A stretch of 64,000 nt of DNA from a virus, in the IMG/VR virus record IMGVR_UViG_3300032235_000808, positions 1-64,000 of that record; one strand, written 5' to 3'. Made by a program: the position numbers and the translations under genes. Shown piece by piece: positions 1 through 38,215 of the stretch (positions within the stretch are counted from its first letter, which is position 1; the number at the start of each line of letters is the position of its first letter). The notes below the pieces were generated by a model that worked only from the letters and a program-made list of their open reading frames with translations, was not told the DNA's origin and searched no databases.

Positions 1-233
1 GGTCGTTCACCTGAAAGCATTTCCTTGCGTCTTTGTTTTTTATGTTCAGTATTATGTAATGCTTTGTAATTTTTTTCAATCTCCTCTAACGGTATTTTGT
101 GAGGGGATGGGTGATGACATGAATGTGTCATCCCATTATGTAAATGTGCGGTAACTTGTGTCCATTTAGCAAGACACATTCCACATCCAATAGAATCTAA
201 TTCAAGTTTAACTTGGTCATTAAATGTCTTCAT
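1..233 (-). CDS. Radical SAM (twitch-type) protein, N-terminal part only
   Basis: The reverse strand reads from an ATG at 233 without a stop to the window edge, giving 77 residues of the N-terminus. The fragment has a Cys-rich start (C17-G-M-C20), then a segment NGMTHSCHHP followed by a stretch ending KKQRRKEMLSGERP. This layout resembles the N-terminus of phage twitch/SPASM-type radical SAM proteins, where the iron-sulfur cysteines lie in the first domain. Its ATG overlaps the stop of the glycosyltransferase upstream in transcription (ATGA), so the two are co-translated. The family call rests on recalled resemblance of a short fragment; the C-terminal part lies outside the window. Confidence 0.6.
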   Translation of the reverse strand, partial: MKTFNDQVKLELDSIGCGMCLAKWTQVTAHLHNGMTHSCHHPSPHKIPLEEIEKNYKALHNTEHKKQRRKEMLSGER

Positions 234-1615
234 TTAATTTTTACATTTATAATTTTAGTATTGGGGTATGTTACATCATCAATGTTTACTGTATCCATTA
301 AATCCAATATTTGATTTATCCCTTCTGTTTTATAATTAATTTTTCCTTGTTGCATCTCTGTAACAAATCTTCTTTCATTTCTTGCGGTTGTATCACCTTT
401 AGCCCATTTACCATTAACAAATCCTTCATCGATATGTGGTAAACATTCAAACTTCCCATCTCTTCTAAATGGTAAAACATCTTTCATCACCTTAATGTTT
501 TCTTTACCGAAAATAACATTATTATAAACCGCACCTTCAAATTGTTCTGATGAACTAAAATGTAATATTGGATTTTCTCTTATCTCACTAATTGGTGTGT
601 CATATATTTTAAGTTCGGAAATCTTACCTTTAAATCTTGTGTTTGTGTGATTACAGAATCCAAGTAAGAATGGTTTGATTGAATCGTGTAATCTTAATTT
701 TTCAGGTAATATTCTTGGTGTATTATATTTTCCACCCATGTAATTTAAAATCAAATCATCATTAACATACACACTATATTCATTGGTATCTTTTTTATAT
801 GAAACAGTAAACCAAGTCCATAGATTTTCAAATCGTTTTGACCATGTATAGTGATAGTTATTTGACCTATCAATAACCATTGAACTAAGTGCTCTTGAAT
901 TATTAAATGATAATCCCCAAGTCCAACTTCTATCTTTTCTTAATAATGGATACTCAATAAATTTTCGTTCAGTATCACCAACTAACCAAATGGGTACTTT
1001 CCCTTGTTGTTGTTCCGCATTAAATAATATCGATATAGTGTGGTCATTATGTAAACATGAACTTACTTCACGATTGGTTGGTAATTCAATGTGTGAATCG
1101 ATACCGTTGAATTCAACATAGTCTTTATTCTCATATTGATTAACAACCTCCCCTGTTGTATATCCTTCATAGTAACATCTCCAAAACAAATCATCATCTT
1201 CTTGTCCCCAATCCCAATATTCGTTTGAATAACCATTTGTTCTTTCAACCTGTTCTTTGGTGAACAAAATAACACCACCAAAATACTGGTCGTAGTTTAT
1301 ACTATAATCATATTTTGATAGTTGTGTTGCAATATGTATTGGATTGTTTTTGGGATATGAATAATCAACATTCTCATCCGGTATCATATCAACATCATGC
1401 CAGGCAATATAGTCACATCCGTCATTGAACGCATATTGTGCGGCAATGTTTTTCATCGCACCCCTATTAAATAGTTTATCATCAACTTGATGTCCAACAT
1501 AAAATTCATGGTCGATACCTTTACCGGTTAATAGTTTACCAAGTTTATCAACAAGTTCATCTAAATGATTTTTTCTGTCTCTGTACGGTATACAAATACC
1601 TAATTTATGACTCAT
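230..1615 (-). CDS. GT7-like glycosyltransferase fused to LamG-like lectin domain (copy 1)
   Basis: This 461-residue protein has a GT-A fold of the beta-1,4-galactosyltransferase (GT7) type. Visible motifs are PYRDR at 10-14, FNRG at 49-52, the metal-binding DVD in DVDMIP at 74-79, FGGV at 112-115 and WGQEDDDL at 136-143; these match the classic GT7 signatures. After about residue 165 comes a concanavalin A/LamG-like beta-sandwich beginning near FNGIDSHIEL, followed by a C-terminal tail of about 100 residues. It probably transfers a sugar from a UDP-sugar to a glycan; the donor and acceptor are unknown. It overlaps both neighbours by four bases and has a paralogue directly upstream. The fused lectin-like domain is unusual for an enzyme of this family. 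Confidence 0.85.
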   Translation of the reverse strand: MSHKLGICIPYRDRKNHLDELVDKLGKLLTGKGIDHEFYVGHQVDDKLFNRGAMKNIAAQYAFNDGCDYIAWHDVDMIPDENVDYSYPKNNPIHIATQLSKYDYSINYDQYFGGVILFTKEQVERTNGYSNEYWDWGQEDDDLFWRCYYEGYTTGEVVNQYENKDYVEFNGIDSHIELPTNREVSSCLHNDHTISILFNAEQQQGKVPIWLVGDTERKFIEYPLLRKDRSWTWGLSFNNSRALSSMVIDRSNNYHYTWSKRFENLWTWFTVSYKKDTNEYSVYVNDDLILNYMGGKYNTPRILPEKLRLHDSIKPFLLGFCNHTNTRFKGKISELKIYDTPISEIRENPILHFSSSEQFEGAVYNNVIFGKENIKVMKDVLPFRRDGKFECLPHIDEGFVNGKWAKGDTTARNERRFVTEMQQGKINYKTEGINQILDLMDTVNIDDVTYPNTKIINVKIK

Positions 1616-3036
1616 ATTCCTACATTAATTTCTGTTATTTTTTTATCTTTTGTTTTACCATATTCGATAAACTCTAATGTATTTAATCCATCTTCATTAG
1701 TTAAATCGGTATTAATTGATATTTCATTGTGGTATCTTAACTGATTCCATCTTGTCGATTGGTCTTTCCATTTATTATCCAAAAATCCATTTTCATTATG
1801 CATTAAAGATTTAAAAAGTGATTTTCTTCTATATGGTATTTTCACTTCTTTATATTCTGGTAAATTTAAATTAACAATTTCACATTTTTCTATTTGTCCA
1901 TTATTTTTATTACCCGAAAGGTCAATTAATTGGTAATTTTCAATAAAATTTGCATTATAATAAATTTTTAAATCAGATGGTGACCTATGTATATTAAAAT
2001 TTTCAGTTAATAACCCGGTTCTATTAATTGATATTTCTTCAACTTCTTTTTCGGTTAATGCAATGTCATAATATGCAAATTCATCAATATGACCCCTAAA
2101 ATAATTAGGTATTAATTCTCTATCGGGTTTACCCACACCCAAATAAAAATATGGTTCCGTTCTATAAGACCTTAGTTTTTTAAAATGTTCTGTTTGACCT
2201 ATAAAAATACCGTCTTGATATACTTTTAAGGTTTTTTCAAACATGTCTAACACAATTACTATGTTAGTTTTATAGTTTGTTTTAATATTTGAATTGACGT
2301 AAAGTGCATTGTTAAAATTATCAAACGCACAAAAATTGTATCTTGAAAATGAATTATAACAAACGGCAAAATCCCATCCTGGAATACTAAAAACGGTAAA
2401 CTCGTCAGATTCTTTTTCATAATTTAATATTAAATTTTCAGGTAAAAACGAAATGAATATCGTGGCATTTGAATTAATATTAATCGTGTTATTACATTTT
2501 ATTAATGAATCTATACCGTTAAACTTTAATGCCTTAGTTTTAATATTAAAATTTTTTAATTTTAACGTGTTTAGATTAACATCATTTTTTCTACATCTCA
2601 ATAATAAATCATCATCCTCAAACCCCCACGCCCAATACTTGTTTGAGTACCCGTTAATTTTTTTAAATGTCTCAACAGGGAACATAGTCACACCACCAAA
2701 ATACTCATCAAATAACTCTCTCGTCTTCCCATTCTCGTCGGGTAAGAAATCGGTTGCAAGGTGTAACGGTACTTCAGAATATGAATAATCAACATCAATA
2801 GGTAACATATCCACATCGTGAAAAACAACGTAGTCACATTCCATTTTTAGTGCGTAATTAAACCCTATGTTTAATAACATACCTCTATTGAATTGTTTTG
2901 CATTATCTTGATTGACTATAATTAATTCATACCGAATATTACGTCCATCTAAATAATCGGTGATATGTTTTTTAAATAAATCTAAATGCTCAAATCTATC
3001 TCTATAAGGGACAATTACACCTAATTTTTTATCCAT
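1612..3036 (-). CDS. GT7-like glycosyltransferase fused to LamG-like lectin domain (copy 2)
   Basis: A paralogue of the preceding gene product, 474 residues. The GT7-type motifs recur at the same places: PYRDR at 10-14, FNRG at 49-52, DVDMLP at 74-79, YFGGV at 112-116 and WGFEDDDL at 137-144. A LamG/concanavalin-like domain follows (about 170-350, with FNGIDSLIKC near its start), and the tail again carries a conserved IPYRR segment. The two copies are clearly diverged in sequence, so this is an old tandem duplication rather than a recent one. It overlaps the downstream gene by ATGA and the small upstream gene by 8 bp, consistent with one operon. Specificity cannot be read from the sequence. 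Confidence 0.85.
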   Translation of the reverse strand: MDKKLGVIVPYRDRFEHLDLFKKHITDYLDGRNIRYELIIVNQDNAKQFNRGMLLNIGFNYALKMECDYVVFHDVDMLPIDVDYSYSEVPLHLATDFLPDENGKTRELFDEYFGGVTMFPVETFKKINGYSNKYWAWGFEDDDLLLRCRKNDVNLNTLKLKNFNIKTKALKFNGIDSLIKCNNTININSNATIFISFLPENLILNYEKESDEFTVFSIPGWDFAVCYNSFSRYNFCAFDNFNNALYVNSNIKTNYKTNIVIVLDMFEKTLKVYQDGIFIGQTEHFKKLRSYRTEPYFYLGVGKPDRELIPNYFRGHIDEFAYYDIALTEKEVEEISINRTGLLTENFNIHRSPSDLKIYYNANFIENYQLIDLSGNKNNGQIEKCEIVNLNLPEYKEVKIPYRRKSLFKSLMHNENGFLDNKWKDQSTRWNQLRYHNEISINTDLTNEDGLNTLEFIEYGKTKDKKITEINVGI

Positions 3037-3226
3037 TTATTGTTGGGTCTTTTGGTTTGGTGGTCTTGTGCCACTCCGATAAGTAATATTGGATTCTTTC
3101 ACTCCATTCATTCTTATCAACTTCTTCAAACCAAACGGTTAACGCATCTAGTGAATTTGCTATCTTCTCTAATGCCTTTACTTTTCTTTGTTCAATTAAT
3201 AATTGTTCTTTTTCTAATTCCGTCAT
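3029..3226 (-). CDS. Small helical protein of unknown function
   Basis: A 65-residue, charged, probably all-helical protein. It starts MTELEKEQ and has a Trp-rich middle (TVWFEEVDKNEWSERIQYY). I recognise no family. It is supported as a real gene by its position: its start overlaps the stop of the upstream glycosyltransferase by four bases and its end overlaps the start of the downstream one by eight, so the reading frames interlock as in the rest of the operon. It could be a partner or adaptor for one of the glycosyltransferases, but nothing in the sequence proves that. Confidence 0.65.
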   Translation of the reverse strand: MTELEKEQLLIEQRKVKALEKIANSLDALTVWFEEVDKNEWSERIQYYLSEWHKTTKPKDPTING

Positions 3227-4074
3227 ATCGATATAATTTTTTTACTTAGTAATCCCCATTTTTTAAAGTTATTGTAATCTGGTGTGGTTAAATCCATTTC
3301 AAACATAAAGTCAGGTCTTTTTAAATCAATTTTAAAATTACTTTTTCTCAATACATTAAACATTAATTCATACTCATTTGAAAATGCGTATTCTTCTTTA
3401 ATATTTGCCACGTCTTGTATTCTTTGAATTGCGGTATCATCCCATTTAAAATGATGTACTTGGACATATCCGTGTGGATAAATTAATGGGTGATTCCATC
3501 CTTGCCATTTCCAAGTTGTGTGACCATCATTATCAACATAGTGTTGACCAGATGTCAATTGTATAAAACCTTTTTTAATACAAATTTTATTTGGGTTGGC
3601 TCCACTCATGGGATGTCTGAAGAATCCGGCATTTGGAAACTGTTCCCAAATTGATATTTTAGATTTTAAATTTGTAAACTCTCCGTTAGTACCAATTCTA
3701 TCAATAAATCCACCTCTAACAATTGCATAATTATTTTCTTCACAATAATTGATAATTTTATTTATGTCGTTGTCAGGATATAAATGGAACTCATCAATAT
3801 CTGCAATGACCCACCAATCATTTGGTTCTTTGTTTGTTATGTAGTTATATAACATTGTAACTTTGTTCCAATCAAAAACTCTATCTTGATGAACCCTTAC
3901 AATCTTTACATTATTATAATGTTGAGTCACACCCATAACATCCTTATTTAAGGAAGGGTACATTTCAGATTCATAAACTACGATGTTTATCTCATCAACA
4001 TAGTTTTGATAATGATTAATGAAATGTGGTAATAATTTGACTCCGTGTCCGATAACCGTTAATAATCTTGTCAT
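3223..4074 (-). CDS. Glycosyltransferase, GT-A fold (Glyco_tranf_2_4/GT92-like)
   Basis: A 283-residue protein starting MTRLLTVIGHGVKLLPHFINHY, the pattern seen in Glyco_tranf_2_4/GT92-like enzymes. The metal-binding motif ADIDEF is at 91-96, preceded by a hydrophobic strand (WWVI). The later histidines and aromatic residues (QVHHFKWDD) fit the acceptor side of this fold. It probably adds a sugar to a glycan chain together with the other transferases in this operon. It overlaps the methyltransferase gene upstream by ATGA. Donor and acceptor are unknown. Confidence 0.75.
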   Translation of the reverse strand: MTRLLTVIGHGVKLLPHFINHYQNYVDEINIVVYESEMYPSLNKDVMGVTQHYNNVKIVRVHQDRVFDWNKVTMLYNYITNKEPNDWWVIADIDEFHLYPDNDINKIINYCEENNYAIVRGGFIDRIGTNGEFTNLKSKISIWEQFPNAGFFRHPMSGANPNKICIKKGFIQLTSGQHYVDNDGHTTWKWQGWNHPLIYPHGYVQVHHFKWDDTAIQRIQDVANIKEEYAFSNEYELMFNVLRKSNFKIDLKRPDFMFEMDLTTPDYNNFKKWGLLSKKIISI

Positions 4075-4796
4075 TTTCTATTAATAATGGTAATACCACT
4101 TGAGGATGGTTTATCCATTAATATACGAAAATTGAATAGATTAATCAAGTTCCATTCAGGATTATCTTGTAATTCTTTGACTAACTTGGATGGTCCATCA
4201 AACCGGTGGTGGTCTTTTTTTGCATCTTCTGAAACTATAAATGTTTCTTCATATTCTCCATCAGTATCGTGTAACATAATGATACCTTTTTCGGATAAGA
4301 TTGTTGAATATAATTCGAAATCTTTTTTTACTCCTTCATATGAATGGTCTCCATCGATAAATAAAAAATCTATTTTAATATCTTGTCTAATAAAAAAATC
4401 ATAAAACGCGTCGACAGAAGTCGATTTGATAAAACGAGGAACAAATACCTTACGAAGGAATGAGTGTTCGTTTTCCAAGTCGTTATACCCACCAACCCCA
4501 TTACAAGCGTCAACGACATAAGTAGTCCCAATGTCGCCCCAATTAAAATCATTGTTTCCATTGAATATATTTTGTTTATGTAAATCTATTCTGGCCTGTG
4601 TTATTATTCTTGGTATATAACCACCACCAGAACCAATACAAACACAATTCTTGGCCCTCATGTGTTGAATTGTTGAATAAACCATGATACCATCACCCAT
4701 ATGTTCACTTGTTGCTCCGTGAGACCATAAGTATGGAATCATTTCTCCACCATTTGATGTGATGTTATTTGTTATAAAATCTTGATTGGTAATCAT
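4071..4796 (-). CDS. Class I SAM-dependent methyltransferase (Methyltransf_24-like)
   Basis: This 241-residue protein shows a Rossmann-type SAM-binding motif CIGSGGGYIPR (53-63), then the acidic strand FIDGDHSYEGVKKD (about 146-159) and LHDTDG (175-180). The DGDHSYEGVxxD pattern is typical of the Methyltransf_24 family, often found in glycan and cephalosporin-hydroxylase-like methyltransferases. Inference: it may O-methylate a sugar made by the surrounding glycosyltransferases. Its start abuts the stop of the upstream GT gene (they share one base) and its stop overlaps the downstream GT gene, so it is embedded in the operon. The substrate cannot be deduced. Confidence 0.75.
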   Translation of the reverse strand: MITNQDFITNNITSNGGEMIPYLWSHGATSEHMGDGIMVYSTIQHMRAKNCVCIGSGGGYIPRIITQARIDLHKQNIFNGNNDFNWGDIGTTYVVDACNGVGGYNDLENEHSFLRKVFVPRFIKSTSVDAFYDFFIRQDIKIDFLFIDGDHSYEGVKKDFELYSTILSEKGIIMLHDTDGEYEETFIVSEDAKKDHHRFDGPSKLVKELQDNPEWNLINLFNFRILMDKPSSSGITIINRK

Positions 4797-5521
4797 TATC
4801 TGATTTTAGATGTTAAATGTGTTGGAACGTGTCTTTTACTATCACCATCTGTATATTTTTTCATTAAATTGTATAAATCCATATCTCTCTGTATTGGTGT
4901 TTGAGATAATAATGCAGATATTGCTGTTGATATTCCTTCACCAGCACCATTTACTTTTTTATTAAATTGTAAATCAGAAAAATCTTTGGTTAATTGTAAC
5001 TTTTCATAAAAATTATAAAATTCATAATGGTTAAATCCATTATTATTAATCACCATAAAGTATTCCCAAATGGTTTCTAAATCACCATAGTTTGGATAAA
5101 TTTGTTCGGCATATTTTATATAAGGTCCCCATTGGTCTTCTTTCAATTGAAAATCCTTAACAAACTCTTTTTTAGCACCGTGGTTTAACAATGTATCAAT
5201 ATACGAAATTCCTGGCTTAAATTCAAATGTCTTGAGGTCCCTTAAAAACGAATAGTCTTTTATTTTAACATCCGCATCTAATATGATTGCAATATCGTGG
5301 TCTTGTAGAATATATTTGGGTAATATTAGTTTATCGTGATATGATTTATATGATTTATAGTATGGTATGGTTTTAGCGTATTTGTTATAAATTAAATTTG
5401 GCGTGTCGGTAAGAACGTAACAACTAAAACCAAAATTTAATATTTCATTTATCTTATCATTTGTTCCTTGATAAAAATAATCATCACCAAAACACATTAT
5501 ACCAAACCCAATATTATTCAT
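4796..5521 (-). CDS. Glycosyltransferase-like protein with DxD motif
   Basis: A 241-residue protein with the hydrophobic strand and metal-binding motif IAIILDADVKI (LDAD at 81-84), preceded by a Lys/Tyr-rich segment ending HDKLILPKYIL. This arrangement resembles GT6/GT8-type retaining transferases (an upstream helix followed by a DxD strand), although I cannot assign a family firmly. Other visible segments are GDLETIWEYF and the Gly-rich VNGAGEGIST near the C-terminus. A candidate promoter box lies about 30 bp upstream, in the short gap after the APS-kinase-like gene. Probably part of the same glycan-building set. Confidence 0.65.
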   Translation of the reverse strand: MNNIGFGIMCFGDDYFYQGTNDKINEILNFGFSCYVLTDTPNLIYNKYAKTIPYYKSYKSYHDKLILPKYILQDHDIAIILDADVKIKDYSFLRDLKTFEFKPGISYIDTLLNHGAKKEFVKDFQLKEDQWGPYIKYAEQIYPNYGDLETIWEYFMVINNNGFNHYEFYNFYEKLQLTKDFSDLQFNKKVNGAGEGISTAISALLSQTPIQRDMDLYNLMKKYTDGDSKRHVPTHLTSKIR

Positions 5522-5561: not shown

Positions 5562-6017
5562 TTAGACTTTTTTAACCAGTTCATTACCCATAATGTCCTC
5601 AATTGTTTCATAAACAGTTCTGTTTGTGGTATTTACATCAATGAAATTATCTGTTGGTGTTTGATAATTTTCAACATGAAATTGTTCTCTACCCCTAACA
5701 TCTGTGGTATGAACAAATATTTCAATCACATTTTCTTTTAAATCTTTTTTAAAGTTATCCCTCAAATCTTTAAATGGTGATACTATAGACATTACAACAT
5801 TTTTACCATCATTAAATGATAATTTCGCCATATTTTGTGCAAGTTCAATATTTGCTCTTCTTCCATTTTCAGAATAATCTTTGTTTTGTGTTAAATTACG
5901 CAAGTCGTCACCATCAATGTGATGTACGTTTGTCAATTTGTGTTCACACAGATATTTTGCCAATGTTGTTTTACCGGCACCAGGTTGTCCAATAAAATAA
6001 TATATCTTCTTACTCAT
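5562..6017 (-). CDS. cysC: APS kinase-like P-loop kinase (adenylylsulfate kinase family)
   Basis: A 151-residue P-loop kinase. The Walker A motif GQPGAGKTT is at 10-18; it is followed by DGDDLR at 35-40 and GRRAN at 52-56, which correspond to the APS-binding DGDxxR and RRxN elements of APS kinases. APS kinase phosphorylates adenosine 5'-phosphosulfate to PAPS, the universal sulfate donor. The protein is shorter than typical bacterial CysC (about 200 residues), and the segment between DGDDLR and GRRAN is shortened, so another small-molecule kinase activity is possible. The presence of a sulfotransferase-like gene 2.7 kb upstream in the same operon supports the APS kinase reading. Confidence 0.7.
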   Translation of the reverse strand: MSKKIYYFIGQPGAGKTTLAKYLCEHKLTNVHHIDGDDLRNLTQNKDYSENGRRANIELAQNMAKLSFNDGKNVVMSIVSPFKDLRDNFKKDLKENVIEIFVHTTDVRGREQFHVENYQTPTDNFIDVNTTNRTVYETIEDIMGNELVKKV

Positions 6018-7809
6018 TATAAATTTTATTCACATAGTTTTCCCCATCACCGTATCTTGACTCAACATCTAATGGTAAATCTTTATTCTCATCGTAACAA
6101 TAGTCTTCAAATCCCAATTGTTTAAATCTTTCATTAATTCTTTCATTATAATGATACATAATGGTTCTCACCCTTCTTTGTATGTCCTTTCTTGATAAAT
6201 CGTGTGAGTTGCTACTATGGATGTATTGTAGATACAACATTTTAGGTATTCTCATCATAATCGTATGTAAGAATGTACGAATAATTAATTCATAATCATC
6301 CGCAATCGCTAAGTGTCTATTATGACCTCCAATTTGGTGGTATACTTCCCTTCTCCACGTTCTAATATGATTTGGGACTCCAACTATATGTCGAATGGTT
6401 TTAGGGTTTATATTGACAGCAATGCAACTCTGGTAGAGTTTATCATTCCAATAGTAATCTTCATAATGACCATACCCCATTGCAAATCCCGGTTCGTATG
6501 TTAATGAGTTGTGTTCGTTATCTATTTCGGCATTATCTGAATAAAAGAAACCAACCTCAGGATGTTTTTGTGAAGCATCATATAATGATTGGGTACAATC
6601 TTCCGTAATAATGTCATCGTGGTCTAATTCACATAATAGATATCCATTACACAACATAGCCGCACGATATTTGGTTTCACCAATAATTCCATTTGACTTT
6701 TCCCTGAAATCATACACCTTAACTCTTGTGTCTTTAGCCGCAATGCTTTCGGCAATCTTTAATGTTTTACCATTATCGCTTGAGTCATTTACCATAACCC
6801 ATTCCCAATTGGTATATGTTTGGTTTCTTAAAGATTCGTAGGTTCTGTAAAGTACATCACCGGTATTGTAGATTGGTGTGAAATAAGATATTAAAAGACT
6901 TGTGTCATTTACCAATATGTTATTCATCGCACAGTGATATGCATGTTCACCAGTCCATTCATTTACCTCAGGTAAGGTAATCCATTTGTTACGAATTTGT
7001 AATGGTTGATTTGCAAGATTGGGGAAATTTTTCCAATCATCACTTATCGTAATAATCGAATCGGGTTTAAATTTTATCAATGCTTCCTCAATGTTAACAT
7101 CGGTAGGTAATGTTAATGTTTCTAAACTGTCATCTTCATAATCTGCGGCTTTATATGATTTTAATTCCCTATCTAATTTATCAATCAATAGTATTTTGGG
7201 TACCTTAGGTTTTTTGGGATTTTCAAAATAGTTATAATAACTTAAAACTTCATTAATCCAAAAGAAAACGTCTGGTTTATCACCATAAATTTTATCAATT
7301 AAAAATCCATCACCGGCATAATGACCGGTAAATTGATACTCTTTAAACACACTATGATGAAAAAGTATTTGTCCCACATCAACACCTTGATATTTCGTAT
7401 TCTCTGGTTTTGCATCTCTAATATCCAATCCCGTAAAGTCTTTTCCATCGACCCTTTGGGAAACAATGAATATCTCCTTATTTGGGTTATCCTCAATAGA
7501 CTTTTCGAGTATTGAACAGAAATCTTCGTGGATAATATTATCATCATCCAACAGATAAATCCAACCATCTAATTTAGACGATAGTTCACCACATTGTGGA
7601 TATAAGTAATCGTCACCATTACCATTAACAAAGTGTAATTTTATTTTATCACTTTGTAAGTTTTGTAATAGGTCTACAGGTATTTCTTTTAAACGACTTG
7701 TATCGAATAAAAGGTGCCATGTTATATCAAATTCATTAAACAAGATGGAATCTCGAATAAAAATTAGATTTTGGAATCGGGTACATCTTGTTAATATGTG
7801 TAATTTCAT
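6010..7809 (-). CDS. Two-domain glycosyltransferase with C-terminal GT2 domain
   Basis: A 599-residue protein with two GT-A-like halves. The N-terminal half (1 to about 200) has WIYLLDDDNIIHEDF with the acidic cluster DDD at 88-90. The second half starts near residue 305 with the GT2 signature ISYFTPIYNTGDVLYRTYES, followed by VMVNDSS, the metal-binding LDHDDI and ADDYEL near the C-terminus, which is the usual acidic catalytic element of GT2 enzymes. Between them lies a linker containing ITISDDWKNF. A protein with two transferase domains can add two sugars in succession, as in hyaluronan synthase-like polymerases; whether both are active is unknown. It overlaps its neighbours by 4 and 8 bp. 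Confidence 0.82.
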   Translation of the reverse strand: MKLHILTRCTRFQNLIFIRDSILFNEFDITWHLLFDTSRLKEIPVDLLQNLQSDKIKLHFVNGNGDDYLYPQCGELSSKLDGWIYLLDDDNIIHEDFCSILEKSIEDNPNKEIFIVSQRVDGKDFTGLDIRDAKPENTKYQGVDVGQILFHHSVFKEYQFTGHYAGDGFLIDKIYGDKPDVFFWINEVLSYYNYFENPKKPKVPKILLIDKLDRELKSYKAADYEDDSLETLTLPTDVNIEEALIKFKPDSIITISDDWKNFPNLANQPLQIRNKWITLPEVNEWTGEHAYHCAMNNILVNDTSLLISYFTPIYNTGDVLYRTYESLRNQTYTNWEWVMVNDSSDNGKTLKIAESIAAKDTRVKVYDFREKSNGIIGETKYRAAMLCNGYLLCELDHDDIITEDCTQSLYDASQKHPEVGFFYSDNAEIDNEHNSLTYEPGFAMGYGHYEDYYWNDKLYQSCIAVNINPKTIRHIVGVPNHIRTWRREVYHQIGGHNRHLAIADDYELIIRTFLHTIMMRIPKMLYLQYIHSSNSHDLSRKDIQRRVRTIMYHYNERINERFKQLGFEDYCYDENKDLPLDVESRYGDGENYVNKIYNE

Positions 7810-29624: not shown

Positions 29625-29626
29625 TT

Positions 29627-29980
29627 TTAGTTATTTGCGTTTTCAAGCACGGATAATACTACATCTAATACTCCAGATTCGTTGGTTGTCATTACTAATT
29701 TATCATTTCTTTCCAATACAAGTTTACCACCAAAAGGATTTAACGATTCTTCAGTTGGTATTGCACCATTATTAAGTAATGTAATTGTGGTGCCCGTATA
29801 TCCACTTTTTATTATCCCAACACTAACTCTTTTAGTGGTGGCAGACATATTTGTAACCTGTGCAGATAAAACAATTGTTGAAATGTCCAAATCTTCTTGG
29901 TATATGTCATTACTACCACTTGTTAATGTTGTGGTAATTAATCGGAATTTATTTAAAGGTAATGAACTAGTAACTGCCAT
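29627..29980 (-). CDS. Small beta-rich virion protein
   Basis: A 117-residue protein, MAVTSSLPLNKFRLIT, with several Val/Thr-rich strands and NNGAIPTEESLNPFGGKLVLERNDKLVM. The pattern PFGGKLVLERNDKLVM looks like the small beta-sandwich proteins present in many phage virions, often near fibre genes. It lies two bases from the large fibre gene. I cannot assign a specific role; a head-tail or fibre-collar part is possible. Confidence 0.65.
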   Translation of the reverse strand: MAVTSSLPLNKFRLITTTLTSGSNDIYQEDLDISTIVLSAQVTNMSATTKRVSVGIIKSGYTGTTITLLNNGAIPTEESLNPFGGKLVLERNDKLVMTTNESGVLDVVLSVLENANN

Positions 29981-30006
29981 ATTTTTATTTATTTAAAATT
30001 TTTATT

Positions 30007-32178: not shown

Positions 32179-32186
32179 ATATATGG
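32175..32186. other. Palindrome CCATATATATGG over start codon
   Basis: A 12-bp perfect palindrome that includes the ATG of the beta-helix gene. It is the first of three palindromes within 70 bp. In RNA it could fold over the start codon and limit translation. Confidence 0.5.
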
Positions 32187-32206
32187 TTCTATTTTATATA
32201 AAATCT

Positions 32207-32222
32207 TGTGATATATATCACA
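32207..32222. promoter_or_regulatory. 16-bp palindrome TGTGATATATATCACA, CRP/FNR-like
   Basis: Exact TGTGA-N6-TCACA, the consensus arrangement of CRP-family operators, 29 bp upstream of the start codon. In transcript terms it lies downstream of the candidate promoter box at 32249-32256, so if protein-bound it would sit where a roadblock or repressor acts; as RNA it is a hairpin. Function not shown. Confidence 0.4.
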
Positions 32223-32230
32223 TTTAATTT

Positions 32231-32244
32231 GACCTATATAGGTC
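32231..32244. promoter_or_regulatory. 14-bp palindrome GACCTATATAGGTC
   Basis: Perfect palindrome directly downstream of the TATTTATA box on the minus strand, near the place where transcription would begin. Operator-like by position. No known binding protein can be named. Confidence 0.35.
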
Positions 32245-32248
32245 TCTA

Positions 32249-32256
32249 TATAAATA
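32249..32256 (-). promoter_or_regulatory. Candidate late-type promoter box TATTTATA
   Basis: Minus-strand TGTGTATTTATATAG, about 70 bp before the ATG at 32178. It has the same core as the other boxes before structural genes, followed by two palindromes. Confidence 0.35.
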
Positions 32257-32295
32257 CACAAAATTTCTATTTAAATAAATAAAATGTGAAAAAAA

Positions 32296-34506
32296 TTATA
32301 AACCGTATGTGGTTTTAATGGCATTGAAATTTGTGGTAATCTCAGCACTCGATAATGCTCTATTATATACTCTCATTTGGTAAAACACAGGTTGGTTTGC
32401 GGTAACTGAACTATTTAATCTATCGGCAGGTCCAGTTCCCGTATTTACGTGTCTTGCACCAAAGTAAAAATCACCAGTTGCATATCCACCAGCTGGGTTA
32501 CTAAGTGTTGCCGTTGAACCGAATTGTGTGCCGTTTAAATATAGAAGTTTACTTGTATTATCAATTACGAAGACCCAATGTCTAATTACATTACTAGCAG
32601 TTATTGTTGCATTTGTTACATTTGCTGTAGGAGAACCCCATGTTATTGTTGTGGAATTTGCCATATATGCAAAATACCCCCTACTAAAACTATAAGCCTC
32701 ATTACCCCAAATACTAGCCCAATGTGAATTCGGGTTAAAAGATGCAACAATTTCAATTGTTGAGGTTGCTCCCGTAATATTATATGGAATACTAATATAT
32801 CCCGTACCTGTAGAATCGGTATTATTTAATTTAATACCACCACCATTATTTGAAACATATGATGTTGTACCATTTAATGTTGCATTAAAACCATTACCCG
32901 AAGTATCACTCCAAACTGTACCCGAACTAGGTGCCGAAGCTAAATTCATAATCAAACCATTCGTCACAATTGCATTTGAACCTGAACTTGGTGTTACTGT
33001 TGGTGTAATTGTTGATGTTGGTGTAATGGTTGGTGTTATAGTGTTAGTCGGAGTTGGGGTAGGTGTGACAGGTGTTGGTGTGTTTGTTGGGGTCATACTA
33101 GGTGATGGTGGTGGTCCCAATAAACTAACCTTAATGTAACCACTACCAGTATTATATGTATTTAAATTTTCAACAGTATACCCTTCAAATGTTGTTAATG
33201 AATTATAGTTACCATCTGATGTTCCAATATATGAAATACTTCCACTAATATAGGAACCTCCTCCTCCACCACCATCGGATTGTGTTCCACCATTAGAGAA
33301 ACCAGTACCACCGCCTGAATATCCACCACCCGCACCTGCGGAAATGATACCATTACCACCTCCACCACCACCGAATCCACCTCGGCTTGATGCGTATGAA
33401 GATGGGTCACTCCAAGAATTGTTTGTACCTCCACCTTTAGAACCGCTAATAAATGAATAACCACCTTCTCCATAGTTTGCAACATAACCAAATGGTTTTG
33501 TTAAAGTACCATTACCATTCATACCGTGACCATAGAAACCCGCACCCGCACCTCCATCATATGTGTTAGAACCACTATGTGATGTTCCACCATTACCATT
33601 TATCCCACCTAAAGAGCCTCTTCTTGATGTTCCTCCAGTATTTGTTGTTACACCATCTTTACCATAATACGGTCCACCGGCAAATGATGTATAATGACCT
33701 GTACCTCCACCACCACCTGCAACTATTAACGGTGTTTGTTGTGAACCTGAGATAGCCACGAATGTACCTCCACCACCACCTAAACCTTGGTAACTACCTG
33801 ATTGATATATATTAACACCACTTGCGTCATAATATTGACCCGCAACCATTGTTAATTTTTGACCTTGTGTAAGTTGGTATCTTGCTTTAACTACGGCACC
33901 TCTACCATATGTTTGTGTTGAACCGACAGCTCTTGCTGCTCTTGAACCTGCAACTTCAAATTCATATGTTGCCGTCTGTGGTACGGTCCAAACTTGATAT
34001 CCTTGGAACGCTCCTGTTGTAAATAATGATGTATCTGTTGCCCAAGATGCTGACCCACTATATGCACCAACTAATGATGAATATGTTGGACCCACATCAC
34101 CTGTTGTATTTGCAGTTGTAAATGTAAAACCTGTAAAATAATATAATGAACTTTCAATAATCGGTGACGTGGTTACTGTAGGTGTTACAGTTGGGGTGAC
34201 CGTACTTGAAGGTGTATATGTTTGAGTTGATGTTATGGTAGGTGTTACCGTTGCGGTTGGTGTAACACTATTTGTTGGTGTAATTGTGTTAGTAGGTGTA
34301 ACTGTATTTGTTGGTGTAATAGTTGTTGTTGGTGTTACTGAATTAGTTGGCGTAATTGTGTTAGTTGGTGTAATAGTTGGAGTGACTGTTTTAGTTGGTG
34401 TTGGGGTATTTGTTAAATTTTGTGTTGGGGTCGGTGTAGGTGTTGATGGCGGTACAAACGCATCAAGACTACCAACTACAAACCCATTTTTAAAAATTAT
34501 ACCCAT
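32296..34506 (-). CDS. Stalk-and-lectin adhesin: PT repeats, glycine-rich domain, LamG domain
   Basis: A 736-residue mosaic protein. After a short head (MGIIFKNGFVVGSLDAF) comes a Pro/Thr stalk (about 18-115: TPTPTP, TNTITPTNSVTPT) of the sort that is rod-like and often O-glycosylated. Next is a glycine-rich domain (about 120-465) with the sequence FEVAGSRAARAV and GGGGGT- and GGGGSY-type loops, resembling glycine-rich adhesin tips. A second PT linker (about 475-515) leads to a C-terminal LamG domain (VTNGLIMNLASAP, WSDTSGNGFNATLNG, SAEITTNFNAIKTTYGL). It probably displays two binding modules on a flexible stalk. The PT stalks are natural targets for the seven glycosyltransferases. Confidence 0.8.
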   Translation of the reverse strand: MGIIFKNGFVVGSLDAFVPPSTPTPTPTQNLTNTPTPTKTVTPTITPTNTITPTNSVTPTTTITPTNTVTPTNTITPTNSVTPTATVTPTITSTQTYTPSSTVTPTVTPTVTTSPIIESSLYYFTGFTFTTANTTGDVGPTYSSLVGAYSGSASWATDTSLFTTGAFQGYQVWTVPQTATYEFEVAGSRAARAVGSTQTYGRGAVVKARYQLTQGQKLTMVAGQYYDASGVNIYQSGSYQGLGGGGGTFVAISGSQQTPLIVAGGGGGTGHYTSFAGGPYYGKDGVTTNTGGTSRRGSLGGINGNGGTSHSGSNTYDGGAGAGFYGHGMNGNGTLTKPFGYVANYGEGGYSFISGSKGGGTNNSWSDPSSYASSRGGFGGGGGGNGIISAGAGGGYSGGGTGFSNGGTQSDGGGGGGSYISGSISYIGTSDGNYNSLTTFEGYTVENLNTYNTGSGYIKVSLLGPPPSPSMTPTNTPTPVTPTPTPTNTITPTITPTSTITPTVTPSSGSNAIVTNGLIMNLASAPSSGTVWSDTSGNGFNATLNGTTSYVSNNGGGIKLNNTDSTGTGYISIPYNITGATSTIEIVASFNPNSHWASIWGNEAYSFSRGYFAYMANSTTITWGSPTANVTNATITASNVIRHWVFVIDNTSKLLYLNGTQFGSTATLSNPAGGYATGDFYFGARHVNTGTGPADRLNSSVTANQPVFYQMRVYNRALSSAEITTNFNAIKTTYGL
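34161..34455 (-). repeat. Pro/Thr-rich coding repeat (stalk)
   Basis: Coding repeat of units such as TPTNTITPTNS in the N-terminal stalk. Periodicity is near 18-27 bases and is imperfect. The opposite strand gives a Val/Gly-rich open frame that is an artefact. Confidence 0.7.
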
Positions 34507-34512
34507 TATGTT

Positions 34513-34520
34513 TATAAATA
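34513..34520 (-). promoter_or_regulatory. Candidate late-type promoter box TATTTATA
   Basis: Minus-strand CTCTATTTATAAACATAATG, ending 6 bp before the ATG at 34506. If this is a -10-like element the transcript would start at or after the ATG, so this copy is less convincing than the others. Confidence 0.25.
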
Positions 34521-34526
34521 GAGAAT

Positions 34527-34550
34527 TTTTTAATTTAAGTAAATTAAAAA
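34527..34550 (-). terminator. AT-only hairpin after fibre gene
   Basis: Stem of 11 A/T pairs with a 2-base loop, located after the stop of the fibre gene starting at 35479. With no G or C it would be weak, and no T-tract follows, so a terminator role is doubtful. Confidence 0.25.
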
Positions 34551-34558
34551 TTGAACCA

Positions 34559-35479
34559 TTATGCTATTTGAGTAACTGTTACAATTACCGATGGTGTTGC
34601 GGGTCTCGATGGAGTTGATTGTACATCTTTATATTGTAATTGCCCCTGTGCCGTTGTTTTTGACCAATACAATTCTACATAACTTCCAGATGATATTGAA
34701 GTTAAGAAGTTTAATGCTGCCACTTGAAATCCCCCACCACTTACCTTTTCAATAGAGAAATCGGTATTTGAATTAGCAATAGCCGAACCGGTCATAGCAA
34801 ACCAAACAGAAAAATCACACGACTGATTTGCGGTTGTATGCAATTGTGTTGAAAATTGAATGTTATATAATCCCGTATTTTCTACATAAATTCTAGTTGG
34901 AACTCCACTACCATTATTTCCAACGTACATACCAGATAAATCAGGACTTGGTACTTCCAATTTCATAGGATATGCCGTATCTGCCGAACCACTTTGTGTT
35001 TGTAATGAATACCATTGTCCGTAGTTGAATAATTTATTTCCCCATCGGGTAAATGATGAACCACTAACTACATCAATATCACCATATACATTTAATGAAC
35101 CCGTTATCCACTGTGAACCTGTTAAGTATTGTGAACCTGTTACAATGAATATTGAATTATGGAAATTAGAACTACCACTCACTTCAATACTACCGCTAAT
35201 TACGGTATTACCCACAATTGTATTGGTTCCAGTCATAAGAGTATTACCTACAATTGTGTTACTACCACTCAAATTATGAGTACCTTTAAATGTTGTTGAA
35301 CCACTTACATTAAATGAACCGGTTACTACTTGATTACCATGGAACGTGTTGTTACCATCTAATAATGTCTCTTTAGTTACAATATGTGTAGTTGTGTTAC
35401 TTACATTATTCATTACAATGTGAACACCGCTAGTGTCACCTGTGTATAATGGTAATTGGTCTATTTTTCTATTTGACAT
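34559..35479 (-). CDS. SGS-repeat fibre protein with C-terminal jelly-roll
   Basis: A 306-residue protein. The head MSNRKIDQLPLYTGDTSG is followed by about 130 residues of fibre repeats (FNVSGSTTFKGTHNLSGSN, TMTGTNTIVGN, YLTGSQWITGSLNV). The C-terminal half (145-306) has a compact beta fold with YSLQTQSGSADTAYPMKLE, YNIQFSTQLHTTANQS and YVELYWSKT, resembling the C1q/TNF-like jelly-roll that trimerises many fibres. It is likely a short tail or whisker fibre. Its start codon shares a base or two with the stop of a 40-codon gene upstream. Confidence 0.75.
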   Translation of the reverse strand: MSNRKIDQLPLYTGDTSGVHIVMNNVSNTTTHIVTKETLLDGNNTFHGNQVVTGSFNVSGSTTFKGTHNLSGSNTIVGNTLMTGTNTIVGNTVISGSIEVSGSSNFHNSIFIVTGSQYLTGSQWITGSLNVYGDIDVVSGSSFTRWGNKLFNYGQWYSLQTQSGSADTAYPMKLEVPSPDLSGMYVGNNGSGVPTRIYVENTGLYNIQFSTQLHTTANQSCDFSVWFAMTGSAIANSNTDFSIEKVSGGGFQVAALNFLTSISSGSYVELYWSKTTAQGQLQYKDVQSTPSRPATPSVIVTVTQIA

Positions 35480-35601
35480 TATTCGTTAGGTTGTAATTGT
35501 TCATCATCTTGACTTGTTACTATAACATTATCTTCGGTTAATAGTAATCCATTAACTTCTGTTATTGTTAAAATAAATCCTTCTGTCATTATTATTGCCA
35601 T
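35479..35601 (-). CDS. Very small ORF (40 aa) before fibre gene
   Basis: Forty codons from an ATG at 35601 (a second in-frame ATG is at 35589) to a TAA that overlaps the fibre gene start (TAATG). The peptide starts MAIIMTEGFILTITEVNG and ends QLQPNE. It fills the gap between a fibre gene and the terminator at 35637. A TATTTATT box lies just upstream, only 3 bp from the first ATG, so the second ATG may be the real start. Function unknown; it may be a short structural peptide. Confidence 0.5.
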   Translation of the reverse strand: MAIIMTEGFILTITEVNGLLLTEDNVIVTSQDDEQLQPNE

Positions 35602-35604
35602 AAC

Positions 35605-35612
35605 AATAAATA
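35605..35612 (-). promoter_or_regulatory. Candidate late-type promoter box TATTTATT
   Basis: Minus-strand TTCTAAGGTATTTATTG lies just before the 40-codon gene, downstream of the terminator at 35637-35667. The TCTAAGGTATTTAT core equals that at 5552-5559. Placement between a terminator and a gene supports a new transcript start here. Confidence 0.4.
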
Positions 35613-35636
35613 CCTTAGAAAATAGAATTAGTAAAT

Positions 35637-35667
35637 AAAAAAGGAAGGATTTGAATCCTTCCTTTTA
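35637..35667 (-). terminator. Intrinsic terminator after gene 35691-37358
   Basis: Perfect inverted repeat AAAGGAAGGATT / AATCCTTCCTTT with a 2-base spacer; on the minus strand the stem is followed by TTTTTTATTT. It lies 24 bp after the stop of the tail fibre gene, so it ends that transcript. The plus-strand side has a weaker T-tract. Confidence 0.75.
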
Positions 35668-35690
35668 ATTAATTACTATTATACTTTAAA

Positions 35691-37358
35691 TTACACATAA
35701 GAACCCCCGTCAATCACTGTCGAGAATACTAAAGCACCATTTGAATTCTTATAACCTAAAATTCCATCCATAACATCTGTTGTTGATGTTGTTGAAACAT
35801 ATCCTAAAATGTTAGATGAATTTCTAAATACAATTGCAGATGAACTTAATGCATTATCAGTACCACCTGAATACGATAATGTTAAATTACCTGTTATTGT
35901 AGTATCACCTGTTCCTGAGTTAACACTAAATTTGTTAGTATTAAGTACCAACGTTGTACCTGAATAAGTTAATAAACTATTACCAATAGTGCCATTTGAT
36001 GTAGCGATAGGGAATGTTCCGTCTGTTAAACTTGATTCAGAACCCATTGAACCAGTTGTTACACTAACAATTTTACCTGTGTTTCCGTTACTATATTGAA
36101 CCAACCAATAATCATTTGTTGCATCCCATAAGAATGAACCTGATAATCCTGCTGAACCTGAATCATATGCCGATAAACCAGCATATCTATCAAATGGTGT
36201 ATATGCATTAACTTGAATAATATTATCACCAATATTAACTGTATTAGATTCTAAATTAACATTGGTTGCAGTCCCAAAAACTTCTAAATTACCTGATACA
36301 TATAAATTACCGTTTACACTTGTATTATTATCCAAATAAATTCCATTTGTACTATCAATTGTAATCGTTTGTAAATTATCGTCTATTTTTAAATAATTTG
36401 TGTCGTCACCAAAGAAATTATATGTTGCATTACCTTTGATGTGAATATCAGAAGGTCCTCCCGTATTATAAATTCTAAAATCTCTACTATCGTTTAAATC
36501 TGGTTTCAAGTATAATGAACCTGTACCTTGAATATTTGTTACTTCAAGTGCACCTGATAAATTTAAATTACCATTATCAAATGTTAATCCACTGTAATTT
36601 GTTAATAAACCATTAGCACCCGCAACAACTAATCTTTTTTCGGTTAAATCTTCTACATACACAGAACCCGATAATATGGTCGTACCACTTACAATTAAAT
36701 CCCCCGGTAATGAGATTGAATTAATAGCAATACTTTCCAAATTAATGTTTTCAATATACGCAGTTCCACTAACATACAAATCATTCCATGCATTATCGGC
36801 ACTACCTAAATCGAAAGTATTATTTAACGCCGGAATCAATGATGAACTAATTTCACCATTAATGTTAACAGTATCACCCGTTAAGTTATCACCGATATTG
36901 ATATTACCTCTTAAAGTAACATCACCTGTTAATGTGATAGAACCTGTTTGGTAAGTGTTACCGGTCATGTTTAAATCACCATCTAAACCTAAAGTTCCTG
37001 TTAATTTATTAATTGTAAGTCCTGAAATTGTATTTCCTTCAATATTACCTGTTAAATCGATATCACTATTACCATCCTTACTTAAGATGTATAATGTTTT
37101 GTTACCTGTAGCGTAAAAAGGTGTTCCGTCAATTACAGAACCGTAAGAACCAACTGAAATTGTTGGTGCGGTTGAACCTTGAAAAATTTTAGAAACTGGT
37201 CTATACGCACCAGCAACACCTTCAGATTCACCAATGAACACCATTGGTCCGTTTAGGTCGTTGATGGAACCGGTAGCCATTACAAATTCACCAACCCTTG
37301 CGGTAACGTCTTTTAGAGTACCAATTCCACCTCTTCTGTGTTTAATTATTTGTGCCAT
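35691..37358 (-). CDS. Tail fibre protein with MAQIIKHRRG-type N-terminus
   Basis: A 555-residue fibre protein. The N-terminus MAQIIKHRRGGIGTLKDVT with RVGEFVMATGSIND is the same attachment-head pattern as in the gene starting at 32178. The rest is composed of beta repeats with SG and TG turns (ITLTGDVTLRGNINIGDN, VSGTTILSGSVYVEDL, IFDSGSAGLSG-like), probably an elongated stalk. The segment YAGLSAYDSGSAGLSG and TNDYWLVQYSNGNTG is shared with other fibres here (27540-27610 region), showing modular exchange. Terminator and candidate promoter flank it, so it may be its own transcription unit. Confidence 0.8.
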   Translation of the reverse strand: MAQIIKHRRGGIGTLKDVTARVGEFVMATGSINDLNGPMVFIGESEGVAGAYRPVSKIFQGSTAPTISVGSYGSVIDGTPFYATGNKTLYILSKDGNSDIDLTGNIEGNTISGLTINKLTGTLGLDGDLNMTGNTYQTGSITLTGDVTLRGNINIGDNLTGDTVNINGEISSSLIPALNNTFDLGSADNAWNDLYVSGTAYIENINLESIAINSISLPGDLIVSGTTILSGSVYVEDLTEKRLVVAGANGLLTNYSGLTFDNGNLNLSGALEVTNIQGTGSLYLKPDLNDSRDFRIYNTGGPSDIHIKGNATYNFFGDDTNYLKIDDNLQTITIDSTNGIYLDNNTSVNGNLYVSGNLEVFGTATNVNLESNTVNIGDNIIQVNAYTPFDRYAGLSAYDSGSAGLSGSFLWDATNDYWLVQYSNGNTGKIVSVTTGSMGSESSLTDGTFPIATSNGTIGNSLLTYSGTTLVLNTNKFSVNSGTGDTTITGNLTLSYSGGTDNALSSSAIVFRNSSNILGYVSTTSTTDVMDGILGYKNSNGALVFSTVIDGGSYV

Positions 37359-37379
37359 TCTTTGTTGTTTGTTTTATAT

Positions 37380-37387
37380 TATAAATA
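37380..37387 (-). promoter_or_regulatory. Candidate late-type promoter box TATTTATA
   Basis: Minus-strand AAAGTATTTATAATATAA, 21 bp before the ATG at 37358 in a 41-bp gap. One of the best-placed copies of the recurrent box. Confidence 0.4.
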
Positions 37388-37399
37388 CTTTATTTTTGT

Positions 37400-38215
37400 T
37401 TAGAAAAACCCATCCCCACAGTCAATTATATTCACATTTGTTTTATGTTCTGCCAATATTATATTTTGCATTTTAATCGATGCCGATACTATCTGTGCAT
37501 TTATTTGGTTTTCAACTATACTCATAGCTCCTGAAACTACTAATGATTCCATATTAGGGTTTAAAGTTTGAACCAATGTGGTCATACCCTCAACTCTTAA
37601 ATTACCTTTAATAGTTACCGAACCACTAAGTAACATTGAACCAGTGTCAGTGGTGTTAATGATAACATTTGTACCGTCATCATAAATTCTTGAATCGACT
37701 AAAATACCACTACCTGAAGATTTTTGTATGTAATTTAAATTACCACTACCAGTTTTTTGTAAAACAATTTTTTGTTCAGAACCCGCAGGACCTGCTTTCC
37801 AATAATCACCGGTAGAATCCCACAATAAAGAACCTGAAATGGTATTTGGCGCAGTTGGGTCTCTTACAATTAGACCACCATTCATTTGACCATTACCGTT
37901 TAATTCGATAATGTTGTCACCTAACTGTATTGTATTTGAATTTATTGAGGTGGTGGTTCCTAAAACTAATAAATTACCCTTTACTGTTAAATTGGACCCT
38001 GTGGTTTGAATTGCCTCTTTTATAGATGCGGAAAATAAATTTAATTCCTCCGTACCCTGAGTGTTTAAGAAATTTGAGAGATTTAAACCAGATACAAATA
38101 CCTCATCAAAATAACCATTTCTTAGAGCTCCACTAGGTGAACCCAAATTTATAATCGAACCTGATGGTACTTCGGCTGTATTAATTTGCAGCCAATTTAT
38201 CTGTTGTAATGCCAT
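37400..38215 (-). CDS. Tail fibre protein
   Basis: A 271-residue protein, MALQQINWLQINTAEVPSG, with fibre repeats from about residue 70 (LTVKGNLLVLGTTT, NTIQLGDNIIELNG, TDTGSMLLSGSVTIKGNL). The C-terminal 60 residues (MTTLVQTLNPNMESLVV to the end, IIDCGDGFF) include predicted helix (QNIILAEHKTNV). The segment SGSLLWDSTGDYWKAG parallels fibres at 27540 and 36120 (SFLFDSQKDEFI, SFLWDATNDYWL). It probably forms a small fibre or collar. A box and a terminator-like hairpin lie upstream. Confidence 0.75.
   Translation of the reverse strand: MALQQINWLQINTAEVPSGSIINLGSPSGALRNGYFDEVFVSGLNLSNFLNTQGTEELNLFSASIKEAIQTTGSNLTVKGNLLVLGTTTSINSNTIQLGDNIIELNGNGQMNGGLIVRDPTAPNTISGSLLWDSTGDYWKAGPAGSEQKIVLQKTGSGNLNYIQKSSGSGILVDSRIYDDGTNVIINTTDTGSMLLSGSVTIKGNLRVEGMTTLVQTLNPNMESLVVSGAMSIVENQINAQIVSASIKMQNIILAEHKTNVNIIDCGDGFF

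Follow-up and report, generated by a model that had tools for sequence, protein, structure and literature searches.

Tail fiber genes joined to halogenase, oxygenase and glycosyltransferase genes in a phage gene island with a possible role in fiber modification

Thirty-four minus-strand genes spanning positions 230 to 38,215 of the IMG/VR virus record IMGVR_UViG_3300032235_000808 form a tight run (28 of the 33 intergenic gaps are shorter than 50 bp) in which fiber genes are followed by halogenase, oxygenase and sugar-transfer genes. We lean toward the reading that the fiber proteins are the main substrates of these enzymes, i.e., that the run is a fiber operon whose downstream half would encode enzymes that chemically finish the fibers. 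The window analyzed is the 64,000-nucleotide stretch at positions 1–64000 of the 80,716-bp record, and genes are named by their lower coordinate (Table 1). In the same run as the collagen, LamG and Gly-rich fiber genes lie seven glycosyltransferase-type genes (one of them matching no profile), three flavin halogenase genes (HalA, HalB, and HalC), three 2-oxoglutarate (2OG) oxygenase-type genes, one methyltransferase gene, one adenosine 5′-phosphosulfate (APS)-kinase-like gene, and one weak sulfotransferase candidate. Judged by sequence, the number of such modification-type genes is far above chance, and the assignments other than the weak ones are matches to curated families. An earlier note on this DNA had listed the same enzymes; all genes in its list are minus-strand open reading frames (ORFs) at the positions it gave, and a Pfam scan of 20 island proteins bore out the list, with the assignments of 4796, 8720, and 13575 weak.

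In reading direction, fiber-type genes (37400 down to 23195) lead to the collagen fiber gene 19987, the small gene 19629, HalA (18056), and an orphan (17633). The Gly-rich fiber gene 16570 comes next, with WPP gene 16130, Cys protein gene 15847, HalB (14272), 2OG gene 13575, gene 13047, and HalC (11541). The run then continues through the GT2 gene 10889, the 2OG gene 10315, the glycosyltransferase gene 9279, the sulfotransferase candidate 8720, the DUF6445 gene 7806, and the double glycosyltransferase gene 6010, ending with the APS-kinase-like gene 5562, the putative glycosyltransferase gene 4796, the methyltransferase gene 4071, the GT2 gene 3223, and the GT7 genes 1612 and 230. The source, an aquatic virus, is probably a large T4-like (jumbo) phage, judging from its near relative G001 (269,133 bp), which carries a T4-type Gp23 capsid gene.

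Comparison with G001, which is collinear with the window, suggests that part of the enzyme set belongs with one fiber. Ten of the eleven genes at 1612–11536 are 98–100% identical in the two phages and the eleventh, 5562, is 93% identical; gene 230 is 89% identical. Collinear alignment is lost at the exchanged cassette, where the sole cross-match within 11,539–18,055 is that of HalB to the HalA of G001 (67%). The window genes replaced are HalC, 13047, the 2OG gene, HalB, the Cys protein, WPP, the Gly-rich fiber, and the orphan. The G001 counterpart holds six 2OG-type genes, one halogenase (39% identical to HalA), a different WPP (39%), and a different Gly-rich fiber, with 60 residues alignable. 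Three of these 2OG-type genes pass the Pfam cut-off, a 168-aa one falls just under it, a 206-aa one is 51% identical to 10315, and a 180-aa one has an HxD…H motif only. Upstream of the cassette, the collagen fiber is 83%, its small partner 72%, and HalA 92% identical; among the eleven genes listed at 23195–38215, seven are 97–100% and two 83–89% identical, LamG gene 24829 is 47% identical, and the PT fiber 32296 is largely replaced. From this identity pattern we conclude that the exchange of the Gly-rich fiber included the halogenase and 2OG genes, and that the glycosyltransferase block did not follow the other fiber changes.

Cassettes of this kind recur. Our locus scans kept the best 80 loci each (of 144, 291, 302, 246, and 105 found, per scan); the scan with two HalB-type halogenases thus covers the best 80 of 291 loci, and a scan with HalB alone gave four. 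A Gly-rich fiber, WPP, a halogenase, and one to six 2OG genes follow one another in this order in L183, L184, L186, and L188–L190 (some of them near copies); L185 has the series minus WPP, and L192 lacks both WPP and 2OG. Halogenase/2OG arrays face Gly-rich genes in L193–L197, L199–L201, and L204, and L215 has the same parts in a different order. When nine cassette contigs (G001, G003–G005, and G011–G015) were searched whole, 19 of 19 halogenase matches fell inside the cassette locus; whole searches of G006–G008 and G010 gave no halogenase match. With halogenase loci grouped at 80% identity into 65 groups (no flank-length filter, unlike the GT7 and WPP controls), a 2OG gene lay within 5 kb in 32 groups; in the controls this was so for 2 of 55 loci with GT7 (p 8e-9) and 3 of 27 with WPP (p 8e-4). 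A Gly-rich gene lay within 6 kb in 15 of the 65 groups, and a Gly-rich, collagen or WPP gene in 17; at this grouping, 2OG genes were present in 13 of the 17 halogenase groups with fiber genes and 19 of the 48 without (p 0.012). The comparison of neighborhoods across phages proposed in the earlier note thus finds subsets of the gene set conserved beside fiber genes.

Among cultured phages, HalA relatives occur in 70 of 50,697 records. In 11 hand-chosen isolates with a halogenase, a Gly-rich or collagen gene lay within 7 kb of it in six and 2OG genes in eight; S-PM2 has neither. The S-SRM01 halogenase has tail fiber genes on one side and, on the other, a gene whose annotation reads gp37-gp38 adhesin tip complex; eight genes annotated as 2OG and one JmjC gene follow that of S-CREM1, a phage whose paper describes mass-spectrometric detection of virion proteins; and in DSL-LC01 two collagen genes lie ahead of the halogenase with one gene between.

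A second association concerns the pair 7806 and 6010. In a scan with five 6010-type proteins (best 80 of 246 loci, 36 groups), 24 of the 36 groups had DUF6445 as the gene immediately upstream of the 6010 family member. For the collagen count, at least 4 kb was required on both sides and three seed groups were left out, seeds having been chosen next to collagen or Gly-rich fibers; 15 of 21 groups then had collagen repeats no farther than 5 kb from the 6010 family, vs. 5 of 42 groups for GT7 (p 4e-6) and 6 of 26 for WPP (p 0.001). With 70% grouping the values were 6 of 7 vs. 3 of 31 GT7 (p 2e-4) and 6 of 24 WPP (p 0.007). In 7806, H197, D199, H281, and R295, the HxD…H…R ligand set of 2OG oxygenases, are invariant in 28 of 28 sequences. 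Its AlphaFold model (mean predicted local distance difference test score, pLDDT, 89.6) matched OGFOD1 (Z 13.9), PHD2 (13.2), and a bacterial prolyl 4-hydroxylase (13.1), with other 2OG enzymes at 12–13; no sequence match was found in the PDB, and the first 111 residues gave no identification. The 6010 model (mean pLDDT 87.6) has the chondroitin polymerase K4CP as its top fold match (Z 24.9, 442 residues aligned over residues 1–584), and its two GT-A domains carry acidic motifs, with D88–D90, D396, D398, and D399 invariant among 31 aligned sequences. Although K4CP likewise has two GT-A domains, identity is 17% and the root-mean-square deviation over both domains is 20, so domain packing differs.

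The GT7 genes follow another distribution. GT7, its GT2, and the methyltransferase are present in 80, 78, and 74 of 80 GT7 loci, in which the fetched flanks held no halogenase and 2OG genes in five (one locus is from G001, whose halogenases lie just outside). By these distributions the island is a mosaic of modules rather than one unit. The earlier note's view of a surface-modification island next to fibers is in part upheld, by the recurrent adjacency and by the joint replacement of enzymes and fiber gene in two close relatives; its suggestion of one dedicated system, made from this combination of genes, is not supported, the parts being distributed differently (GT7 loci without halogenase, and 48 of 65 halogenase groups without a fiber-type gene within 6 kb). 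A rival explanation is that the region is a mere insertion hot spot by fiber genes in which unrelated accessory enzymes accumulate. Variable cyanophage genes do cluster in hot-spot regions (PMC3037559; published work is cited here from excerpts), and the gene combination differs among relatives, but specific pairings recur, namely DUF6445 upstream of the 6010 family and collagen near that family and seldom near GT7, and we consider this explanation very improbable.

Composition gave some clues to substrates. Gly-rich domains near halogenases were richer in Trp, His, Cys, and Pro than enzyme-free ones; a scan with a second Gly-rich fiber type (15 loci) served this test only, and the lineage control, a grouping by N-terminal lineage, was coarse, with 124 sequences chained into one lineage. 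Pro enrichment survived this control in both settings, beside halogenases (p 0.004) and where 2OG genes stood alone (p 8e-4). Per lineage, His and Cys were also still raised near halogenases (p 0.01 and 0.005, respectively), without explanation. Trp enrichment, considered as a mark of halogenase action on the Gly-rich fiber, was evident per sequence (1.14 vs. 0.39%, p 2e-4; 22 vs. 95 sequences) and was not used, being lost per lineage (7 vs. 41, p 0.13) and raised beside 2OG genes alone (p 0.03). The Pro enrichment that held favors prolyl hydroxylation of the Gly-rich fibers, and the Trp test speaks for no particular halogenase substrate. Of 122 ORFs from seven isolates, those richest in Trp mostly did not encode fibers. 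The window's collagen fiber has 244 Gly-X-Y triplets, mainly GPQ, GNQ, GNT, and GPT, with no Lys, which rules out hydroxylysine glycosylation as in mimivirus for these triplets. Collagen near the 7806/6010 pair had more Pro, Asn, and Phe in X and Gln in Y (34 vs. 31 proteins), a suggestive difference only, given that the comparison had no lineage control and its reference set holds doubtful repeats.

If fibers are the substrates, three modules can be envisaged. One (2OG 10315, glycosyltransferase 9279, prolyl-hydroxylase-type 7806, double glycosyltransferase 6010, and glycosyltransferase 10889) would act on the collagen stalk by hydroxylation and glycosylation; as the stalk repeats are without Lys, the likeliest sites would be Pro in the X position or else Thr/Asn. 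In our judgement the chances are about even that 7806 and 6010 act in this way. The target of a second (2OG 13575, halogenases 14272 and 11541, and perhaps 18056) would be the Gly-rich adhesin 16570, which is exchangeable, or its neighbors, although halogenation of the fiber tip, again on the premise of fiber substrates, is in our judgement the more doubtful part. The third (both GT7 genes, GT2 3223, and the methyltransferase) would attach a glycan to some better conserved target. Kinase 5562 and the sulfotransferase candidate 8720 fall outside these three modules. We infer from these patterns the fibers as substrates, the residues modified, and any benefit in stability, receptor binding or shielding. 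A wider proposal, which we hold to be rather unlikely in its entirety, is that aquatic phages carry exchangeable fiber-finishing cassettes: a prolyl-hydroxylase and chondroitin-synthase-like pair that would place a proteoglycan-like, possibly sulfated glycan on collagen tail fibers, and a halogenase plus 2OG array that would hydroxylate and halogenate the tips of Gly-rich adhesins; residues invisible in the genome would then tune receptor binding.

Phage halogenases and the numerous 2OG oxygenases of phages are usually classed as auxiliary metabolic genes without a settled role, and the published reading of cyanophage halogenases is conversion of free Trp to chlorotryptophan. During infection the enzymes might correspondingly produce an antibiotic or small molecule that is both halogenated and hydroxylated, as proposed in PMC7824862, PMC9964418, and PMC2984593. 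The island halogenases are homologous to the free-Trp halogenases PrnA and RebH, and 11 of the 65 halogenase groups have a carbamoyltransferase gene no more than 6 kb away. Yet the Pfam scan, which for this purpose covered the 20 island proteins and not the remaining genome, gave no nonribosomal peptide synthetase or polyketide synthase family, and the cassette sits within a fiber gene run and changes with a fiber gene, making a small-molecule product unlikely. The phage halogenase VirX1 has, according to a review, a large, accessible active site and broad substrates, which fits fiber and small-molecule substrates alike. VirX1, from cyanophage Syn10, is of the same family as the island enzymes and distant from them (PDB 6qgm is matched by HalA at 2e-57 and HalC at 4e-34); the review excerpts name no native substrate for it.

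For the halogenase/2OG/carbamoyltransferase cluster of related cyanophages, two readings are published, secondary metabolite or capsule decoration (PMC7824862). That cluster (S-SSM6a and relatives), like the window, combines a Trp-halogenase-family gene, several 2OG oxygenases, and sugar enzymes. Unlike it, the window has no carbamoyltransferase among the 20 island proteins scanned, and it has collagen-linked and Gly-rich-linked modules. In S-SSM7 a distance of 9.3 kb, occupied in part by carbamoyltransferase genes, separates the end of a tail fiber gene from the halogenase that follows it. Modification of host surface glycans, which could block superinfection or progeny re-adsorption with the LamG tails of the GT7 proteins binding the glycan, would suit the many glycosyltransferases, those LamG domains, and the proposal that cyanophage glycosyltransferase clusters diversify the outer polysaccharide (PMC7824862). 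It leaves the collagen link of the 7806–6010 pair and the joint replacement of halogenase/2OG genes and fiber unexplained, and we regard it as quite unlikely.

Modification of the phage's own fibers has partial precedents. Glycans are found on virion proteins of glycosyltransferase-encoding mycobacteriophages (Freeman 2023, as cited in PMC12619734), as proposed here, but on capsid and tail tube subunits, and the citing passage does not mention oxygenases or halogenases. Mimivirus likewise pairs a viral collagen with dedicated enzymes, which act on hydroxylysine, whereas the window collagen lacks Lys and the window glycosyltransferase is of the GT2 chondroitin-synthase type. Phage halogenases, phage 2OG oxygenases, virion glycosylation, and phage collagen are already known. 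A literature search, mostly outside subscription journals, returned no statement that phage halogenases or 2OG oxygenases modify fibers, nor, within the same scope, an earlier description of the modular split, the collagen-linked hydroxylase–glycosyltransferase pair, or the Gly-rich/halogenase/2OG cassette with joint replacement. Were fiber modification correct, host range and stability of aquatic phages would depend on chemistry unreadable from the fiber gene, and the statement in PMC3368898 (in excerpt) that the prolyl hydroxylases required for collagen are missing from bacteria and viruses would need revision.

Several results weigh against fibers as the substrates, as does the loss of the Trp signal described above. 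The joint replacement of enzymes and fiber was seen in a single phage pair. No Gly-rich, collagen or WPP gene lay within 6 kb in 48 of 65 halogenase groups (many of the loci being short), and at 60% grouping the tie between fiber and 2OG genes was lost (7 of 10 vs. 12 of 24, p 0.45). Within 7 kb of the halogenase, P-SSM2, Syn1, S-PM2, HTVC008M, and S-SSM7 had no Gly-rich or collagen gene at the thresholds used. In G009, ∼25 kb separate the halogenase and the Gly-rich locus; none of the six halogenase matches in G016 is accompanied by a Gly-rich gene near the fetched locus; and in L439 and L441 the 6010-type module adjoins Gly-rich genes, not collagen. Among 72 WPP loci (from the best 80 of at least 590), none had a halogenase and five had a 2OG gene within 4 kb. 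Since few halogenase groups have fiber-type genes near, many halogenases evidently sit elsewhere, especially on contigs with WhiB-like genes.

Two further candidates were set aside. WPP 16130 was rejected as a dedicated halogenase substrate, as it is a general partner gene of Gly-rich fibers. Among fibers sharing the 16570 N-terminal domain, a halogenase lay within 5 kb for 5 of 9 Gly-rich vs. 1 of 43 others, a result not used because the query was built from cassette fibers and is biased.

Table 1. Coordinates of island features, listed in reading direction.
Feature	Coordinates	Strand	Basis
Further fiber-type and structural genes incl. PT-rich 32296	25524..38215	-	PHROG matches, some weak; none for 35691
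Three LamG-type virion proteins (23448, 24132, 24829)	23448..25557	-	phrog_24074, phrog_8510
Collagen-repeat tail fiber	19987..23106	-	PHROG tail fiber families
Small gene after collagen fiber, possible assembly partner	19629..19985	-	72% in G001; same place in L005
Flavin halogenase HalA	18056..19591	-	PF04820 8e-112; 92% identity in G001
Exchanged cassette	11539..18055	-	no collinear alignment with G001; borders at gene ends
Orphan protein	17633..18025	-	phmmer in fetched loci: self only
Gly-rich fiber, probable adhesin	16570..17610	-	PF21722 2e-8; replaced in G001
WPP partner protein of Gly-rich fibers	16130..16537	-	Gly-rich gene directly upstream in 53/69 WPP loci having an upstream ORF
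Small Cys protein	15847..16116	-	homologs near other islands
Flavin halogenase HalB	14272..15801	-	PF04820 5e-107
2OG-Fe(II) oxygenase, type 5 (2OG-FeII_Oxy_5)	13575..14270	-	PF13759 2e-7; unusual ligand motif
Unknown protein with homologs in other phage loci	13047..13550	-	no match above cut-off; 34 phmmer matches incl. self in fetched loci
Flavin halogenase HalC	11541..13046	-	PF04820 4e-84; Lys and Glu positions kept
GT2 glycosyltransferase	10889..11536	-	PF00535 6e-7
2OG-Fe(II) oxygenase (2OG-FeII_Oxy_3)	10315..10899	-	PF13640 8e-16
Glycosyltransferase, GT2 type	9279..10337	-	no own match; PF00535 in 5/17 aligned members
Sulfotransferase candidate, weak	8720..9277	-	motifs common with one distant homolog (L178)
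DUF6445 protein; residues 112-305 prolyl-hydroxylase-like 2OG fold	7806..8723	-	PF20043 2e-13
Double glycosyltransferase resembling chondroitin polymerase	6010..7809	-	PF00535 1e-20; AlphaFold model
APS-kinase-like kinase	5562..6017	-	PF01583 4e-15, 56.4 bits vs cut-off 21.1
Putative glycosyltransferase, weak label	4796..5521	-	conserved DxD only; Pfam matches 0/13 aligned members
Methyltransferase (Methyltransf_24)	4071..4796	-	PF13578 2e-11
GT2-type glycosyltransferase (GT2_4)	3223..4074	-	PF13704 1e-5, 26.3 bits vs cut-off 27.5, just under
Second GT7 + LamG tail	1612..3036	-	PF13733 3e-21, PF13385
GT7 galactosyltransferase-type domain + LamG-like tail	230..1615	-	PF02709 2e-19, PF13733; LamG score under cut-off

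The island enzymes look intact, their catalytic residues being kept as far as alignments tell. All three halogenases match the Trp_halogenase family over full length, and K72 and E346 (HalA numbering), which we take to be the known catalytic Lys and Glu positions, are invariant in 8 of 8 aligned halogenases, the window's three included. The presumed family motif WxWxIP is fitted by HalA (GWMWKIP) and HalB (GWMWQIP); HalC has GWSFQVP. In the PDB, HalA and HalC have as relatives Trp halogenases (including PrnA and RebH) and the cyanophage VirX1. In flavin halogenases, K79 and a glutamate are named as catalytic in a review, cited in excerpt. In 13575, an HxD/E…H motif was not found by pattern search, and an HxH is visible in the sequence. 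The best PDB match of the GT7 profile is beta4GalT7, and 8720 had no Pfam match at E 0.05, so that the sulfotransferase family profile was not reached.

No T4-type late-promoter box was found within 150 bp upstream of island genes, and a DNA search of the 20–40 kb part against phages returned two records only, each with a 33-bp match. A phage sigma-factor-like gene (phrog_351) lies at 49827–50636 of the window. The G001 halogenase (L004:13136-14758) starts with a short collagen-like stretch, GPIGPIGPM, that resembles motifs of the neighboring collagen fiber. Beyond GT7, where the window ends, G001 continues with a block (L094:155-10884, i.e., G001 20155–30884) that includes a carbamoyltransferase (Pfam) ∼7 kb beyond GT7; inspection by eye adds a protein of radical-SAM-like appearance and one of 502 aa whose C terminus is Cys-rich. 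Elsewhere, a family of small hydrophobic proteins of ∼94 residues lies within 3 kb of the halogenase in 61 of 80 loci (L004–L083; contigs with WhiB-like genes). The S-SRM01 adhesin tip gene beside the halogenase (L515:10488-11576) has a Cys/Trp-rich segment, and the Syn9 genes annotated “DNA endonuclease V” and “minor coat protein” (L091:18406-20113) match the 2OG profile, likely an annotation error. An unrelated contig (L178:2026-12373) holds an 8720 homolog together with a halogenase, 2OG genes, a Cys protein, and two genes in which sulfotransferase-like motifs are visible by eye, and in L376, L399, and L439–L441 a shorter APS-kinase-like homolog (142 aa) lies immediately ahead of a Gly-rich fiber gene.

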